42,656 nucleotides of DNA, from assembly GCA_945870035.1 (NCBI GenBank), contig CAMBQQ010000028.1, positions 1 through 42,656 of the forward strand. Direction: 5' to 3'. This DNA is from Rhizobium sp. Q54. GTDB taxonomy: Bacteria > Pseudomonadota > Alphaproteobacteria > Rhizobiales > Xanthobacteraceae. The translations under genes were made by a program, and so were the position numbers. Below, in pieces: positions 31,723-38,214 of this stretch (its first letter is position 1; every line of letters starts with the position of its first letter). The notes beneath the pieces are model-generated. The model ran no database searches and had not been told where the DNA came from. It worked only from the letters and a program-made list of their open reading frames with translations.

Positions 31723-33846
31723 ATGACCGACATTTCAGCCGCCTCTTCCCCCGCGACCGGCGGCTTCAAGATCCCCAGCCTTGGCGCGATGGGCGAAGCT
31801 GTGCGCAAGGGCGACATGGGGCTCGCCATCGGCGTCCTCGTCATTCTCGTCATCCTGATCCTGCCGCTGCCGCCGGTCCTGCTCGACCTGGCGCTGGCGA
31901 TTTCGATCATCCTGTCGATCCTGATCCTGATGACGGCTTTGTTCATTCACACGCCGCTGGAATTCTCCGCCTTCCCGACCGTGCTGCTGATCGCCACCAT
32001 GCTGCGGCTGGCGCTCAACCTCGCCTCCACGCGACTCATTTTGTCGCACGGTCATGAAGGCGGCGCCGCTGCCGGCCACGTCATTGAGGCGTTTGGCAAT
32101 TTCGTGATGAGCGGCAATTTCGTCATCGGCATTATCGTCTTCACGATCCTGGTCATCGTCAATTTCGTCGTCATCACCAAGGGCTCCGGCCGCATCGCCG
32201 AAGTCGCGGCGCGCTTCCACCTCGACGCCATGCCGGGCAAGCAAATGGCGATCGATGCCGACATGTCGGCCGGCCTGATCGACGAGAACGAAGCCCGCGC
32301 CCGCCGCAAGACTCTGGAAGCCGAAGGCGGCTTCTTCGGCGCCATGGACGGCGCCTCCAAATTCGTGCGCGGCGACGCCATCGCCGGCCTGCTCGTCGTC
32401 TTCATCAATGTCATCGGCGGCATGATCATCGGCATGGCCCAGCAGGGCATGCCGTTCGCCGACGCGGCGCGCACCTACACGCTGCTGACCGTCGGCGACG
32501 GCCTGGTGACGCAGATGCCGGCGCTGATCGTCTCGACCGCCGCCGGCCTGCTTGTCTCCAAGGCCGGCATCTCCGGCTCCGCCGACAAGGCGATGATGAA
32601 GCAGCTCTCCGGTTATCCGAAGGCGCTCGGCATGTCGGGCGGCGTCATGCTGATCATCGCGTTGTTGCCGGGCATTCCGTTCCTGCCGTTCTTTTTCCTC
32701 GGCGGCGGCGCTTCGCTCTTGGCCTTCTACGCCAACAAGCGCGCCAAGGCCGTCGTCGCCGATGAAGCGACCAAGGCGGCGACCGAAACCAAGGCCGCCG
32801 AAGCCGTCGATGAGCCGATCTCGACCGCGCTCAAGATCGACGACCTCAAGGTTGAACTCGGCTATGCGCTGCTGCCTTTGGTGAATTCGCCGGACGGCAG
32901 CGACCGCCTGACCGAACAGATCAAGGCGCTGCGCCGTTCGCTCGCCGGCGAGATGGGCTTCGTCATGCCGGCGGTGCGCATCCTCGACAACGTCAATCTC
33001 GAGTCCAACACCTACGTCATCAAGATCAAGGAAGTCGAAGCCGGCTCCGGCAAGATCTGGGCCGGGCAGTACATGGTCATGGATCCGTCCGGCGGCCAGG
33101 TGAACCTGCCCGGCACGCACACCACCGAACCGACCTTCGGCCTGCCGGCCACCTGGGTCGACGCCAGCATCAAGGAAGAAGCGGCGATGCAGGGTCTCAC
33201 CGTGGTCGATGCCGCCACCGTGCTATCGACGCATCTGACCGAAATTCTCAAGAACAACGTATCGGACCTGCTGTCCTACGGCGAAGTCACCAAGCTGCTC
33301 AAGGATCTGCCGAAAGAACAGGCCGAACTGCTCAAGGACCTGGTGCCGACGCTCATCACCACGTCGGGCATCCAGCGCGTGCTGCAAATCCTGCTCGCCG
33401 AGCGCGTCTCGATCCGCGATCTCTCGACCATTCTCGAAGGCATCGCCGAAGGCGCCGGCGGTACGCGCAACCCGCTCACTCTGGCCGAGCATGTACGCGC
33501 CCGCATCTCGCGGCAGATCTGCGCGCAGTATACCAGCCACAACGGCTATCTGCCGCTCATCGCCATGTCGGCGAAGTGGGAGCAGGCCTTCGCCGAGTCG
33601 ATCGTCGGCCAGGGCGACGACCGCCATCTGGCGATGCAGCCGTCCAAACTGTCGGAGTTCATCACTCTGGTGCGCGAGAAGTTCGAAACCGCGGCGCGCG
33701 AAGGCGAAGCCCCGGTGCTGGTCACCTCGGCCTCGATCCGCCCCTTCGTGCGCGGCATCGTCGAGCGCTTCCGTGCGCAAACGCCGGTGATCTCGCAGAG
33801 CGAGATTCATCCGCGGGCAAGGTTAAAGACGGTGGGGAGTATTTAG
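31723..33846 (+). CDS. flhA: flagellar type III export gate protein FlhA
   Basis: FlhA is the export-gate component whose cytoplasmic ring receives substrates and chaperones. The 707-residue protein has about eight membrane segments at 33-335, the FHIPEP signature region at 152-180 (TKGSGRIAEVAARFHLDAMPGKQ), the conserved Asp209 in FFGAMDGASKFVRGDAIAG, a linker (340-365) and the large cytoplasmic domain with LTEILKNNVSDLLSYGEV and LAEHVRARISRQIC. Length is normal. It has its own CtrA-type promoter and stands apart from other flagellar genes, 7.2 kb after flbD; fliR and flhB do not follow. Confidence 0.97.
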   Translation: MTDISAASSPATGGFKIPSLGAMGEAVRKGDMGLAIGVLVILVILILPLPPVLLDLALAISIILSILILMTALFIHTPLEFSAFPTVLLIATMLRLALNLASTRLILSHGHEGGAAAGHVIEAFGNFVMSGNFVIGIIVFTILVIVNFVVITKGSGRIAEVAARFHLDAMPGKQMAIDADMSAGLIDENEARARRKTLEAEGGFFGAMDGASKFVRGDAIAGLLVVFINVIGGMIIGMAQQGMPFADAARTYTLLTVGDGLVTQMPALIVSTAAGLLVSKAGISGSADKAMMKQLSGYPKALGMSGGVMLIIALLPGIPFLPFFFLGGGASLLAFYANKRAKAVVADEATKAATETKAAEAVDEPISTALKIDDLKVELGYALLPLVNSPDGSDRLTEQIKALRRSLAGEMGFVMPAVRILDNVNLESNTYVIKIKEVEAGSGKIWAGQYMVMDPSGGQVNLPGTHTTEPTFGLPATWVDASIKEEAAMQGLTVVDAATVLSTHLTEILKNNVSDLLSYGEVTKLLKDLPKEQAELLKDLVPTLITTSGIQRVLQILLAERVSIRDLSTILEGIAEGAGGTRNPLTLAEHVRARISRQICAQYTSHNGYLPLIAMSAKWEQAFAESIVGQGDDRHLAMQPSKLSEFITLVREKFETAAREGEAPVLVTSASIRPFVRGIVERFRAQTPVISQSEIHPRARLKTVGSI

Positions 33847-33885
33847 CGCGACGGCACTTCACGCAGCGCAATACCTGTCTTGTTT

Positions 33886-33899
33886 TTGACCCATCTCAA
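33886..33899. promoter_or_regulatory. FixK/FNR-type box upstream of the OsmC-like gene
   Basis: TTGACCCATCTCAA is an exact TTGA-N6-TCAA, the half-site pattern of FNR/FixK regulators. It is 90 bp upstream of the OsmC-like ATG. If it sits at -41.5, transcription starts near 33934. A matching box lies before the convergent AhpD-like gene. Confidence 0.6.
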
Positions 33900-33988
33900 T
33901 AGAGACCGGCAGCCGTCAGCTACCTACACCTATACAATCGTGGCGTCACCACGCGCCCGTCGGCCCGGCCGGTCCAGAGAGGTATCCC

Positions 33989-34396
33989 ATGCTTGAATAC
34001 GATGTAGTCGCGCGGCGCATCGATTCACATGGCAGCGTAGCCCAGTGTAAAGGGGCCGAGATCGCTTTAGACACCGACATCAACGGCCGCGCCGACGCCT
34101 TCAATCCGGCGGAACTGTTTCTGGCCGCGATTGCCGCCTGCATGATCAAGGGTATCGAACGGGTCGCGCCGATGCTCAAGTTCCATTTCCGTGGCGTCGA
34201 AGTCCGGCTTCATGGCGTTCGTCAGGACAGCCCGCCCTTCATGGCGTCGATCACTTATGATCTCATCGTCGATACAGATGAAGACGATCGGCGCCTCGAA
34301 TTGCTGCACCAGAATGTTCGAAAATACGGGACGATCTCGAACACGGTCGCCGCGGCAACGAAGCTCGACGGGCGGATCATACGGCGCCCTTCGTAA
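33989..34396 (+). CDS. OsmC-family protein
   Basis: A 135-residue OsmC-fold protein. FNPAELFLAAIAACMIKGIERVA holds the conserved first cysteine (Cys51) at the start of the central helix. The position of the second cysteine of peroxidatic OsmC/Ohr enzymes reads KYGTISNTV, with Gly instead of Cys, so classical Cys-Cys peroxidase chemistry is unlikely; the only other cysteine is Cys20. GAGAGG lies 8 nt before the ATG. It precedes the P1B-type metal ATPase by 20 bp, an apparent operon with a FixK-type box upstream. Confidence 0.88.
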   Translation: MLEYDVVARRIDSHGSVAQCKGAEIALDTDINGRADAFNPAELFLAAIAACMIKGIERVAPMLKFHFRGVEVRLHGVRQDSPPFMASITYDLIVDTDEDDRRLELLHQNVRKYGTISNTVAAATKLDGRIIRRPS

Positions 34397-34416
34397 AACC
34401 TTGATTGAGAGTGACG

Positions 34417-36777
34417 ATGGCCGCTGACAAACTGGCGCTCGACCTGACGCTCGTGCTGCCGCACATCCCCGACGAGCGGGATTCCTGCGTCGAGCGGCTG
34501 ATTTCTCTACTCAAAGGCCAGAACATCGATCGGGCACACGTCGTTCACGAGGACGGCAAAGCGCGGCTCTGCCTGCACTACGATTCCGACCGCATAGGGT
34601 TAGCGGAGGTCCGCCAACTGGTCACCTCAGCCGGCGCCGCGATCGACAAGCGCTATGTGCATGAAAGCCTTCGCATCGAAGGCATGGACTGCCCGACCTG
34701 CGCCAATGTCATAGAGCACGCCCTTGGCCGCCTCGAAGGCGTGCTCGAGGCCAAGGTGAGCTACGCGGCCGAGCGGCTGCGCCTGGAATATGACAGCGAA
34801 CGAACGTCGCACCGGGCGGTGAAGCGCCGCATCGAAGCACTGGGCTATCACGTCTTCGCATTGGAAGCCGACGCCGGATGGTGGGTTGAGCATCGCGAAC
34901 TGGTCTTCAGCATCACCGCCGGCGTGCTGCTGCTTGGCGGCTGGCTCGGCGGACTCGCGGGCGCGCCGTACTCGGTATCTCTGGGTCTCTATCTTGCCGC
35001 CTATGCATTCGGCGGCTTCTTCACCGTGCGCGACGCGGTGCAGAGCCTGTGGGCGAAGCGGTTCGATATCGACACCCTGATGCTGGTCGCGGCTGTGGGA
35101 GCGGCGATCCTGGGGGAATGGGCCGAAGGCGCCCTGCTGCTGTTCCTATTCAGCCTCGGCCACGCCCTTGAGCATTCGGCGATGGACCGGGCGCGCCACG
35201 CGATCGAAGCGCTGGCCGATCTAGCGCCGAAGACGGCGCTGGTGCGCCGCGATGGCACGGAAATCGAAGTCCCGGTCGCGGAATTGCTGCGCGGCGACAT
35301 CGTCATCGTCAAGCCTGGCCAGCGCCTGCCGGCCGACGGCAAAGTCACCGAGGGAAACTCCGCGGTCGATCAATCGCCGGTCACCGGCGAGTCGGTTCCG
35401 GTGGACAAGAGTCGCGATGACGTCGTCTTCGCGGGCACCGTCAATGGCGACGGCGTTCTGCTGGTCGAAGTCACCAAGCTCGCCACGGAAAGTACGCTGG
35501 CGCGCATGGTGCGGCTGGTCTCCGACGCACAGACCCAGAAATCGCCGACCCAGAATTTGACCGACCGTATCGAGCGCGTCTTTGTGCCGGTCGTGTTGAT
35601 CGGCGCCGGTCTCCTGATCGCGGTGCCGCCGCTGGTCGGCTTCCCCTTTACCGAGGCCTTCTATCGCGCGATGGCGGTGCTGGTGGCGGCTTCGCCCTGC
35701 GCGCTGGCTATCGGCACGCCGGCGGCGGTGCTTTCGGCCGTGGCCCGCGCCGCGCAACTCGGCGTCCTGATCAAAGGCGGCGCCCATCTGGAAAATCTTG
35801 GCCGGTTGGCCGCCATCGCCTTCGACAAGACCGGCACCATCACTGAAGGCAAGCCGCGTCTCACCGACATCGTCGCCTTCGACGCCACGGAGAACGACGT
35901 TCTTGCGCTGGCAGCCGCACTGGAGAGCCGCAGCGGCCATCCATTGGCGCAGGCCATCGTCGCTGCGGCTCGCGAGCGTGGGCTGGGCTGGGACGAGCCC
36001 GCGGACATTGAAGCGGTGAACGGCAAGGGCATACGCGCAACCCTTGGCGCGCGACGCATCGAGATCGGCAACTTAAAGCTTTTCGCAGGCGAAGCGGTCG
36101 ACGCGGCAGCGGCGGCGCAAGTCGAGCGGCTGGAATCCGCCGGGCGCACGACCATGCTGGTCCGCGCGGATGGACGTTTCATCGGCGTCGTCGGACTGAT
36201 GGACACCCCGCGGGCCGGCGTATCGGCTGTTTTGGCGGAACTGCGAGCGTTGGGCATCATCAAGACAGTGATGTTGACGGGGGACAACGAGCGCGTCGCT
36301 CGTGCGGTGGCGCAGACGGTCGATCTGGAAGACGTTCACGCCAGCCTGTTGCCCGAGGACAAGATCGCCGCTGTGGCCGATCTCGTAAAGGCATATGGCC
36401 AGGCGGCCATGGTCGGCGACGGCGCCAATGACGGGCCGGCGCTCGCCCGCGCCACGGTTGGCATCGCCATGGGTGGCGCCGGCACCGACGTGGCGCTGGA
36501 AGCCGCGGATGTCGTGTTGATGGGCGACGATCTCGGCAAACTGCCATTCGCCGTCGGCTTGGGCCGCGCGGCGCGAACGATCATCCGCCAGAATCTGTTC
36601 ATCGCCCTCGGCGCCGTTGCGCTGCTGGTTCCGGCAACTTTGTTCGGCTGGGCCGGCCTCGGCGTCGCCGTGCTGATTCACGAAGGCTCGACGCTTGTCG
36701 TCGTATTCAATGCGCTGCGACTGCTGACTTACTCCACTTCGCCGGCACCGTCCGCTTCACAGCCGAATTCACACTAG
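34417..36777 (+). CDS. P1B-4-type heavy-metal-translocating ATPase
   Basis: A 786-residue inner-membrane pump. A degenerate ferredoxin-like domain without CxxC (about 8-75) precedes a true HMA domain with GMDCPTC at 89-95. The pump core has TGES at 323-326, SPC at 426-428, the phosphorylation motif DKTGT at 470-474, SGHP at 506-509, GDGAND at 667-672 and HEGST at 755-759. SPC in place of CPC together with HEGST defines the P1B-4 subgroup, whose members export cobalt, iron, zinc or nickel. The ATG at 34417 was chosen; GTG 34411 is possible. Operon with the OsmC-like gene. The exact metal cannot be told. Confidence 0.93.
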   Translation: MAADKLALDLTLVLPHIPDERDSCVERLISLLKGQNIDRAHVVHEDGKARLCLHYDSDRIGLAEVRQLVTSAGAAIDKRYVHESLRIEGMDCPTCANVIEHALGRLEGVLEAKVSYAAERLRLEYDSERTSHRAVKRRIEALGYHVFALEADAGWWVEHRELVFSITAGVLLLGGWLGGLAGAPYSVSLGLYLAAYAFGGFFTVRDAVQSLWAKRFDIDTLMLVAAVGAAILGEWAEGALLLFLFSLGHALEHSAMDRARHAIEALADLAPKTALVRRDGTEIEVPVAELLRGDIVIVKPGQRLPADGKVTEGNSAVDQSPVTGESVPVDKSRDDVVFAGTVNGDGVLLVEVTKLATESTLARMVRLVSDAQTQKSPTQNLTDRIERVFVPVVLIGAGLLIAVPPLVGFPFTEAFYRAMAVLVAASPCALAIGTPAAVLSAVARAAQLGVLIKGGAHLENLGRLAAIAFDKTGTITEGKPRLTDIVAFDATENDVLALAAALESRSGHPLAQAIVAAARERGLGWDEPADIEAVNGKGIRATLGARRIEIGNLKLFAGEAVDAAAAAQVERLESAGRTTMLVRADGRFIGVVGLMDTPRAGVSAVLAELRALGIIKTVMLTGDNERVARAVAQTVDLEDVHASLLPEDKIAAVADLVKAYGQAAMVGDGANDGPALARATVGIAMGGAGTDVALEAADVVLMGDDLGKLPFAVGLGRAARTIIRQNLFIALGAVALLVPATLFGWAGLGVAVLIHEGSTLVVVFNALRLLTYSTSPAPSASQPNSH

Positions 36778-36782
36778 TTTCG

Positions 36783-37151
36783 TTAAGCAGAAGGCGTGGA
36801 AGCCGCTGCTTTTTGCGCTTCAAATTGCGAATAGGCCTCGAACGCATGATTGGCGTACATGGCCGATGGGCCGGCCCCCATATAAATAACCATGCCAAGA
36901 ACCTCCGCGACTTCGTCACGGGAAGCGCCGTGCTCGAAGGCGGCCTTGACGTGAAACGCGATGCAGTCATCGCAACGCACGGCGACGGAGATGGCGAGTG
37001 CAATGAGTTCCTTGGTCTTGCCGTCGAGCGCCTTTCCCGCAAGCGCCGCCTGGGCGAGACCGGCAAAAGCCTTCATGGCTTCGGGAGCGCCGCCGCGAAG
37101 ATTGCGCAACGACCCGCTCAGTTCCTTAACGAGATCCGGCCAATCCTGCAT
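36783..37151 (-). CDS. AhpD-like carboxymuconolactone decarboxylase family protein
   Basis: A 122-residue all-helical protein of the CMD/AhpD family. Residues Glu48, Cys60, Cys63 and His67 (ELIALAISVAVRCDDCIAFH) keep the exact spacing of the AhpD proton relay and CxxC redox centre (Glu118, Cys130, Cys133, His137 in Mycobacterium), so a thiol-dependent peroxidase or reductase role is likely. GGAG lies about 9 nt before the ATG at 37151. It converges on the P1B-ATPase with only 5 bp between the stops. A FixK-type box lies upstream. Confidence 0.9.
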   Translation of the reverse strand: MQDWPDLVKELSGSLRNLRGGAPEAMKAFAGLAQAALAGKALDGKTKELIALAISVAVRCDDCIAFHVKAAFEHGASRDEVAEVLGMVIYMGAGPSAMYANHAFEAYSQFEAQKAAASTPSA

Positions 37152-37238
37152 CGCGTAAGCTCCACCTTCGCCGGCAGTTGCTTTGCCGGGACCGCACACC
37201 GAGAGTGACCTTGTTAAGTCCCAAACGAGCCTGCGCCG

Positions 37239-37252
37239 TTGACATGCATCAA
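37239..37252. promoter_or_regulatory. FixK/FNR-type box upstream of the AhpD-like gene
   Basis: TTGACATGCATCAA is an exact TTGA-N6-TCAA; the arms extend to CGTTGA/TCAACG. It lies 88 bp upstream of the AhpD-like start codon, nearly the same distance as the box before the OsmC-like gene. Confidence 0.6.
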
Positions 37253-37526: not shown

Positions 37527-37796
37527 GTGAAACCATTCGACTTTTCCGCTCCGGCGGAGCTTTTCCCATCGCGCAACCGCAAGATTGCCAACAAGGTCCG
37601 TTATCGCCGTTTCGATACCGCCGCCGACGCCATTCGCTTCGCGGTCGAGGAACTGCCGGAGCCGCTGCTGCTCGGCGCCTATATCGAAATCCGGGAAACC
37701 CGGCTCGGCCACAAGGACATCCGTGCGCTCTACGATTGCGACAGCTATCCGCTGCCCAAGACCGTGGTTGCTGCGGCCGAAGAGACAGTGGCCTAA
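37527..37796 (+). CDS. small conserved-looking protein, unknown function
   Basis: An 89-residue protein beginning MKPFDFSAPAELFPSRNRKI. It has a basic region (RNRKIANKVRYRRF), a helix (DTAADAIRFAVEELP) and a strand-rich end (LLGAYIEIRETRLGHKDIRALYDCDSYPLPK) with one Cys. The start is GTG, with GGAG 9 nt upstream. The composition is balanced and looks like a real protein, but I do not recognise a family or function. Confidence 0.65.
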   Translation: MKPFDFSAPAELFPSRNRKIANKVRYRRFDTAADAIRFAVEELPEPLLLGAYIEIRETRLGHKDIRALYDCDSYPLPKTVVAAAEETVA

Positions 37797-38010
37797 TCCT
37801 CTGCGCCGAATACACCGAAACGCCGAAGTTTGACGCTTTTCGCCATTTCGTATATGGAAAGGCGTTGAAACTTTGGTTTTCGGTTATGCCTTGCTGACGT
37901 GCCCTTTTGGGCGCTGCCAATGCACCCCCCAAAACTCGGTGTTTCGATCGCACAGGCGAACAATCGCCTGCGCGCATCACACAAAGCAGCGCATAGCAAA
38001 AGGTGCCACG

Positions 38011-38214
38011 ATGGCGACAGGTACGGTCAAGTTCTTCAATACCCAAAAGGGTTTCGGTTTCATCACCCCGAGCGACGGCTCCAAGGACGTGTTCGTGCAC
38101 ATCAGCGCCGTCGAGCGCGCCGGCATGAGCACGCTCAACGAAGGCCAGCGCCTGTCGTATGAAATCGTTACCGAGCGCGGCAAGCAGGCCGCCGCCAACC
38201 TGCAGAACGCCTAA
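38011..38214 (+). CDS. cspA: CspA-family cold-shock protein
   Basis: A 67-residue single cold-shock domain. [21 protein letters not shown] carries RNP1 (KGFGFI) and VFVHISAVE carries RNP2, both complete, so it should bind single-stranded RNA or DNA as an RNA chaperone. The ATG at 38011 follows AAGGTG. The 214-bp upstream gap can hold the long leader usual for such genes, but no cold box was identified. A good terminator follows 36 bp after the stop. Confidence 0.96.

Follow-up and report, generated by a model that had tools for sequence, protein, structure and literature searches.

Paired boxes and the proteins they precede

We examined a 42,656 bp stretch of DNA (the window) from Rhizobium sp. 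Q54, contig CAMBQQ010000028.1, in which an osmC-family gene followed by a heavy-metal P-type ATPase gene converges on a gene for an AhpD-like protein of the CMD family (CMD below), with a box of the FNR/FixK type upstream of osmC and another upstream of CMD. The host bacterium is close to metagenome-assembled genomes (MAGs) named Pseudolabrys (Xanthobacteraceae). The window holds exactly two TTGA-N6-TCAA (TTGANNNNNNTCAA) sites, compared with a mean of 0.26 (S.D. 0.52) in dinucleotide-shuffled copies, of which 2/100 had at least two. An earlier interpretation made from the DNA alone, here called the sequence-only reading, had claimed this exact pair with fewer than one site expected by chance, distances of 90 and 88 bp to the two genes, and 5 bp between convergent stops. 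All of this was borne out: 89 bp separate the end of the box from the osmC ATG and 87 bp separate the CMD ATG (37151) from its box, i.e. within 1 bp of the claim, and 5 bp (36778–36782) lie between the ATPase and CMD stops. The mechanical list of open reading frames (ORFs) begins CMD at GTG 37199, but because close orthologues align from ATG 37151 we took the latter as its start.

An AlphaFold model of the OsmC-family protein (mean pLDDT 80.7) has the OsmC fold and matches 1lql with a TM-score of 0.81. Its Cys51 is kept in 86/86 aligned rows of the family (86 of the 88 loci compared below, two rows being too short) and aligns with the first catalytic cysteine of an OsmC paralogue from the same genome, whereas Gly114-Thr115, likewise present in 86/86 rows, stands where that paralogue has the second catalytic Cys-Pro. 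The protein is thus like the OsmC/Ohr thiol peroxidases in fold and in the position of Cys51, and unlike them in having Gly-Thr for the second Cys-Pro; as the alignment shows no second catalytic cysteine, we rejected an ordinary two-cysteine peroxidase. In the CMD protein the pattern Glu-x11-CxxC-x3-His (ELIALAISVAVRCDDCIAFH), which we take to be the active-site pattern of Mycobacterium tuberculosis AhpD, is intact. A Pfam search with a 70-residue fragment gave no match.

The ATPase contains Pfam E1-E2, hydrolase and HMA domains, the last (PF00403) at residues 85–145 with 58.7 bits, and carries SPC (AASPCALA, M4) and HEGST (HEGxT, M6) motifs that align with those of sCoaT (PDB 7qbz); HEGxT was read in the window ATPase only. 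SPC and HEGxT are the P1B-4 motifs named in PMC8880997, and the match to sCoaT (7qbz/7qc0) reaches 626.8 bits over residues 160–776. Unlike sCoaT, which that source describes without a classical heavy-metal-binding domain, the window protein has an HMA domain with CPTC in front of this core, and we took this as a variant rather than as exclusion from P1B-4.

Table 1. Features of the locus, in window coordinates
Feature	Position	Strand	Basis or remark
flhA, resident left neighbour	31723..33846	+	in sister genomes G002 and G037 the flhA stop is 22-24 bp from the CMD stop
Segment box-osmC-ATPase	33847..36782 (edges approximate)	+	absent between flhA and CMD in G002, G037 and G023
FNR/FixK-type box TTGACCCATCTCAA upstream of osmC	33886..33899	.	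pattern scan of the window; eight more Xanthobacteraceae-type loci have an identical or almost identical box between -80 and -104
Candidate -10 hexamer TACAAT (5/6) for osmC	33933..33938	+	ten bases beyond the class II place
OsmC-family protein, 135 aa, one family-wide conserved cysteine (Cys51)	33989..34396	+	PF02566, 57.7 bits, cut-off 27.5
P1B-4 (CoaT-like) heavy-metal ATPase, 786 aa, N-terminal HMA domain (CPTC)	34417..36777	+	SPC and HEGST motifs; closest solved structure 7qbz
AhpD-like CMD-family protein, 122 aa, E-x11-CxxC-x3-H	36783..37151 (from ATG)	-	PF02627; closest solved structure 5dik, which is named AhpD
FNR/FixK-type box TTGACATGCATCAA upstream of CMD	37239..37252	.	strict box upstream of 19/30 orthologues (window included)

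Beyond CMD lie an 89-residue ORF (37527–37796) with no Pfam or NCBIfam match at E 0.001 and a small cold-shock-type protein, named by eye (38011–38214, inside the longer ORF 37873–38214). Rfam and tRNA scans found one tRNA only, distant from the locus.

Recurrence of the boxes and promoter spacing

A CMD match was present in 127 of 150 genomes (own included). We analysed the 30 best loci, in four of which a stop interrupts the match. The exact (strict) box lies within 300 bp of CMD in 19 of these 30, window included, and 18 of the boxes fall at −64 to −112. Controls on the same orthologues gave no hits for the reversed pattern or for N5, N7 and N8 spacers, and one for N4. All six orthologues of at least 85% identity, again counting the window, are boxed. 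Outside the box the CMD upstream sequences are 30–39% identical to the window in ungapped comparison, and 16/19 boxed orthologues have no ATPase match within 1.5 kb.

For osmC we compared 88 loci, namely the window, 73/80 named-genome loci and a further 14 that come from 13 relatives; the 80 were the best of 408 related loci, and seven repeats of the same genomes were dropped (L070, L071, L076, L081, L084, L093 and L113). In places the set still has two loci of one genome (e.g. L109/L129 and L132/L143). A relaxed box, TTG[AC]-N6-[TG]CAA, occurs within 300 bp of osmC in 14/88 loci, all of which have one at −80 to −113, and the reversed controls gave 0. Nine of the 14 (window included), of Xanthobacteraceae type and from several contexts, share TTGA[CT][CT]CA[TG]C[TG]CAA, with flanks common to the window, L056 and L057, and to L058 and L059, and different in the other loci. 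When boxes were instead counted within 250 bp of the head of the osmC operon (n = 87, L063 being left out as it has no upstream sequence), 18 heads had a strict and 25 a relaxed box, with reversed controls of 0 and 0. In addition, eight of 28 plasmid records were opened, and in seven of these eight loci the operon head carries a strict box (−48, −86, −87 or −116), the sole strict site in its stretch. Since L270/L272 and L273/L275/L276 share box and layout, approximately four of the seven plasmid positives are independent. No box was found directly upstream of the ATPase gene (0/5), as expected for an internal gene.

At class II promoters the centre of the activator box lies near −41.5. The CMD boxes are followed by a TATAAT-like hexamer starting at +19 to +25, with a mean best score of 3.63 compared with 2.49 for shuffled sequence (0/2000), and of 3.77 compared with 2.29 (0/2000) for the 13 boxes left when the six closest are removed. 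The signal was weaker for osmC, with 3.21 compared with 2.27 (0/2000) for 14 boxes and 3.30 compared with 2.27 (2/2000) for the ten remaining without the window, L056, L057 and L059. Such spacing would put the centre of the CMD-family box near −41.5, i.e. in a class II position.

Metal(loid) export partners and history of the locus

At least 40 of the 88 osmC loci have a member of an arsenic-type cluster (ArsP-type permease, SBF/ACR3-type, ArsC, LMWP-type or FMN_red/ArsH-type) within approximately 6 kb. This count is a lower bound because the neighbour clustering missed the ArsA, ACR3 and LMWP-type ArsC of L062; the cluster labels rest on one Pfam-tested representative each, ‘ACR3’ (SBF) and ‘ArsH’ (FMN_red) being our own names. 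A permease precedes osmC in the same run in 32/88 loci. In seven loci (L097, L100, L102, L119, L120, L123 and L146, with osmC taken from a BLAST match in L119, L120 and L146), permease, osmC and an SPC-motif ATPase (49–55% identical) follow each other in this order on one strand, some with arsR. Judged by its gene neighbourhood, the OsmC family is associated with arsenic-type genes and with other genes for metal export, a point missing from the sequence-only reading.

Plasmids of the Rhizobiaceae offer the closest comparison. On NT-26 plasmid NT26_p1 the run is permease-thioredoxin-rhodanese-osmC-ATPase, beside arsK, arsO-type, ACR3, arsC and arsR genes, and on a Hoeflea sp. plasmid it is arsR-permease-thioredoxin-MBL-osmC-ATPase, where MBL denotes a metallo-β-lactamase-fold gene. 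Both operons resemble that of the window in having OsmC followed by the heavy-metal P-type ATPase and a strict box at the head. They differ in keeping the permease and thioredoxin genes (and, in Hoeflea, arsR) in the run, whereas the window has only osmC-ATPase and the ArsP-type permease of its genome lies on contig C14. The NT-25 plasmid stretch, which ends at the record edge, shows no ATPase after osmC, and four plasmids from Agrobacterium, Rhizobium and Shinella have osmC-VIT, three of them with dmeF. Some osmC-bearing plasmids are typed conjugative. On gene order, the window cassette looks like the downstream end of longer operons in alphaproteobacteria, built as box-(arsR)-ArsP-type permease-(thioredoxin)-osmC-ATPase and sometimes found in arsenic islands.

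The ArsP-type permease gene on C14 (L159:3375-4526) is preceded, 76 bp from its ATG, by an exact TTGA-N6-TCAA box. Permeases of this kind, as judged from L079 and L102, match SaoE and the SO_0444 Cu/Zn family only below threshold. Several related arrangements were also seen. In L062:7977-12784, which comes from G084, a one-contig genome in the same family, a CMD-ArsA-OsmC run has two FixK2-type (relaxed) boxes; its ArsA profile match is 732 bits (cut-off 650), and arsR, LMWP-type arsC and ACR3-like ORFs follow, by eye. In L261:2660-9028 (G005) an 84% identical ATPase has in front of it, by eye, a DnaJ/CbpA-like ORF and a short one resembling CbpM, and is followed by a same-strand ArsP-type permease. 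Upstream of osmC in L074, L075, L079 and L082 (MAGs named Bradyrhizobium or Bradyrhizobiaceae) lie CMD and then a conserved protein of approximately 425 residues with no Pfam match (tested on L075), and three of the four also have methyltransferase-like and glutamine-amidotransferase-like ORFs (by eye) there. OsmC-like, AhpD/CMD and metal-binding domain types recur among selenoprotein families tied to metal(loid) resistance, according to the list in PMC13188914. Unlike those families, the three window proteins show no selenocysteine, and matches here to NCBIfam relatives of families of that type are far under the curated cut-offs.

The sister genomes bear on how the locus was assembled. In G002 and G037 flhA is followed by a convergent boxed CMD, with 24 and 22 bp respectively between the stops and no osmC-ATPase at that place; in G023 flhA and the CMD after it are approximately 1 kb apart and flank another ORF, the box is kept and osmC-ATPase is again not there. 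A homologue search of relatives found no OsmC match in these three genomes. The osmC-ATPase pair occupies the flhA-CMD place in the window, G012 and G030. We therefore rejected a single ancient unit: a box-osmC-ATPase cassette would have become placed between flhA and a CMD gene that already had its box. Since two separately boxed genes were joined, the matching layout of the boxes is not evidence of one old unit. In loci L056, L266, L267 and L268 from sister genomes, a Crp/Fnr-like ORF (by eye) is divergent from CMD, and the CMD box lies in the space that separates the two; such an ORF was not seen in the window ORF list, and an apparent homologue is on contig C36 (L028).

Regulators, oxygen and alternative explanations

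The genome of the window (G000; 4.12 Mb in 189 contigs, 91% complete) has 110 TTGA-N6-TCAA sites compared with 21 for the reversed pattern, an approximately 5-fold over-representation, so that roughly a fifth of the sites could be chance. Contig C38 encodes FixL, FixJ and FixK together with a cbb3 cluster, in which ccoN is over its NCBIfam cut-off and FixO and FixG domains were found. FixJ is also over its cut-off (311 compared with 255 bits), whereas FixK and FixL are best matches yet fall under theirs (241 compared with 300, and 596 compared with 850 bits respectively). The top PDB match of FixK is FixK2 (4i2o), and the recognition helix ETVSR is kept. Measured from mechanical gene starts, strict boxes lie approximately 80 and 200 bp upstream of ccoN and approximately 55 bp upstream of the FixG-type gene. 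The scan for boxes at cbb3 genes suggested by the sequence-only reading was thus positive, and the FixK/FNR-type regulator on which that reading depended is encoded, FixK being accompanied by FixL and FixJ. Elsewhere in the genome, three strict boxes lie within 130 bp (L151:13871-13998, G000:C2), with a transporter/nitrate reductase cluster on one side and a Crp/Fnr gene of FtrB type on the other.

A box TTG(A/C)-N6-(T/G)CAA and FixLJ-FixK with cbb3 genes are shared with the FixLJ-FixK2 regulon of Bradyrhizobium diazoefficiens and with alphaproteobacterial FNR/FixK/DNR regulons, as described in PMC5582078 and PMC2908626, the former of which places the nosR FixK2 box 40.5 bp from a start site. 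Among other papers, a B. dolosa fixLJ study lists 4-carboxymuconolactone decarboxylase beside PaaY and acyl-CoA genes, which is probably unrelated (PMC5234846); OsmC is raised in bean bacteroids, with no tie to FixK (PMC6421345); an OsmC-like gene is listed with another site type (PMC13207237); and the portion seen of PMC3596328 holds nothing on a link between FixK and osmC or CMD. Within limited literature coverage that included few subscription journals, we found no published report of a link between oxygen sensing and metal or arsenic export. One heavy-metal P-type ATPase of an FNR regulon, RSP0690, is presumably FixI/CcoI. It stands in the core FNR list of PMC2908626 and differs from the ATPase described here, which is a P1B-4 exporter linked to osmC; the main text of that source, so far as it was available, does not contain the words OsmC, AhpD, carboxymuconolactone or arsen*.

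Taken together, the boxes, their recurrence, the gene partners and the protein classes, all of which come directly from comparison, favour the explanation that both boxes are FNR/FixK-type activator sites, which would place an osmC–P1B-4 ATPase operon and the convergent AhpD-like CMD under low-oxygen control by FixLJ-FixK (or FNR). We give this a probability of approximately 0.68.

A number of observations weigh against it. Strict boxes are lacking at 11 of the best 30 CMD orthologues and relaxed ones at 62/87 osmC-operon heads, including all seven loci named Xanthobacter; by layout, there is no relaxed box in 42/56 osmC-first loci or in 20/31 permease-containing operons. The centre of the window osmC box is asymmetric. 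At the class II place the window’s own −10 matches only 2/6 positions for osmC and 3/6 for CMD, so that a clear class II promoter for the window osmC was not found on recheck, which lowered our confidence; the centre of the TACAAT candidate lies approximately 43 bp from the box centre and would set the box near −53, not −41.5. Moreover, the class II place was picked after the sequences had been inspected, some rows are close relatives, and neighbouring places also score above average for both sets of boxes. As to the partners, none of the five ars-type clusters occurs between −5.5 and +6.5 kb of osmC in the window, and the proposal of a box just upstream of each arsP orthologue failed, with 1/19 within 300 bp and a relaxed reversed control that also gave 1. 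Finally, 22 Crp-type helix-turn-helix matches in the genome, 17 of them over the cut-off, do not fix the regulator, nor can the site alone name it, because predicted FNR, FixK and DNR sites are virtually identical (PMC2908626).

This last point bears on the alternative that the boxes are functional and read by another Crp/Fnr regulator, i.e. an iron–sulfur FNR, a nitric oxide (NO)-responsive DNR, an FtrB-like protein or the product of the Crp/Fnr-like gene that adjoins CMD in the sister genomes, in which case the signal may be NO, nitrate or stress. Besides the many Crp-type matches and the near-identity of the sites, candidates are offered by that divergent gene and by two FtrB-type genes next to the nitrate reductase cluster with its several strict boxes, one a family member at 273 bits (cut-off 211) and the other a weaker match at 130 bits, under that cut-off. 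However, the FixK2 recognition helix is present in FixK, whose gene lies together with those of FixLJ and the boxed cbb3 cluster, and the apparent own-genome homologue of the local Crp/Fnr-like gene (L028) has a different recognition helix, TTRSRVSHFM, by eye; we regard another regulator as unlikely, although worth keeping in mind.

It is somewhat less probable still that the cassette serves reactive sulfur (sulfide or persulfide) and not metals, as its OsmC, thioredoxin, rhodanese and MBL-fold partners might suggest through persulfide handling. Rhodanese genes (NT-26 and NT-25) and an MBL gene (Hoeflea plasmid) do lie inside the operon, L123 has an MBL-like ORF by eye (these being the known cases, as no search was aimed at other loci), and one arsR-type regulator has a weak sub-threshold BigR match (41 compared with 155 bits), but a P-type ATPase, VIT, DmeF, SBF/ACR3, ArsC and ArsA as partners speak for metal(loid)s. 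That both window boxes are chance matches is very improbable indeed, despite the fifth of genome sites that may be chance, the 2/100 shuffles and the poor −10 of osmC at class II spacing, because boxes recur at similar positions upstream of orthologues with diverged flanks and the controls are zero or near-zero.

Returning to FNR/FixK-type control, reduced, more soluble or more thiol-reactive forms of metal(loid)s prevail without oxygen. As oxygen falls, reduced soft metal(loid)s, e.g. Fe(II), Co(II), As(III) and methylarsenite, would become the chief threat, and FixK would turn on an exporter and two cysteine proteins handling metal- or thiol-bound damage; we propose that the one-cysteine OsmC handles metal(loid)-thiols. 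Regulator binding, low-oxygen induction, the cargo and the roles of OsmC and CMD are what we infer here. The sequence-only reading had described a low-oxygen-induced metal-export and thiol-redox unit. Its regulatory and export parts gain from boxes that recur beyond controls, from FixLJ-FixK with boxed cbb3 genes and from the P1B-type ATPase, OsmC fold and AhpD-type CMD; it did not hold as one old unit, as the sister genomes without osmC-ATPase show, and its thiol-redox part is uncertain given the Gly-Thr of OsmC.

More tentatively, and as a possibility that we would sooner doubt than assert, alphaproteobacteria may possess a mobile metal(loid)-efflux cassette, gated by oxygen and centred on the one-cysteine OsmC. 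FixK/FNR would induce this cassette ahead of reduced iron, cobalt and arsenic, and OsmC would be a thiol-based handler feeding interchangeable exporters (ArsP-type permease, P1B-4 ATPase or VIT) and not a peroxidase. The Cys51-only OsmC, recurring near arsenic-type genes and on plasmids, provides a specific gene with which to test this. If true, oxygen sensing would be linked directly to metal and arsenic export, and metal(loid) defence would be armed as oxygen falls, before or without a metal signal; the recurrence of such boxes before related genes in a fair number of other bacteria suggests that a lack of oxygen and defence against metals and arsenic can be coupled.

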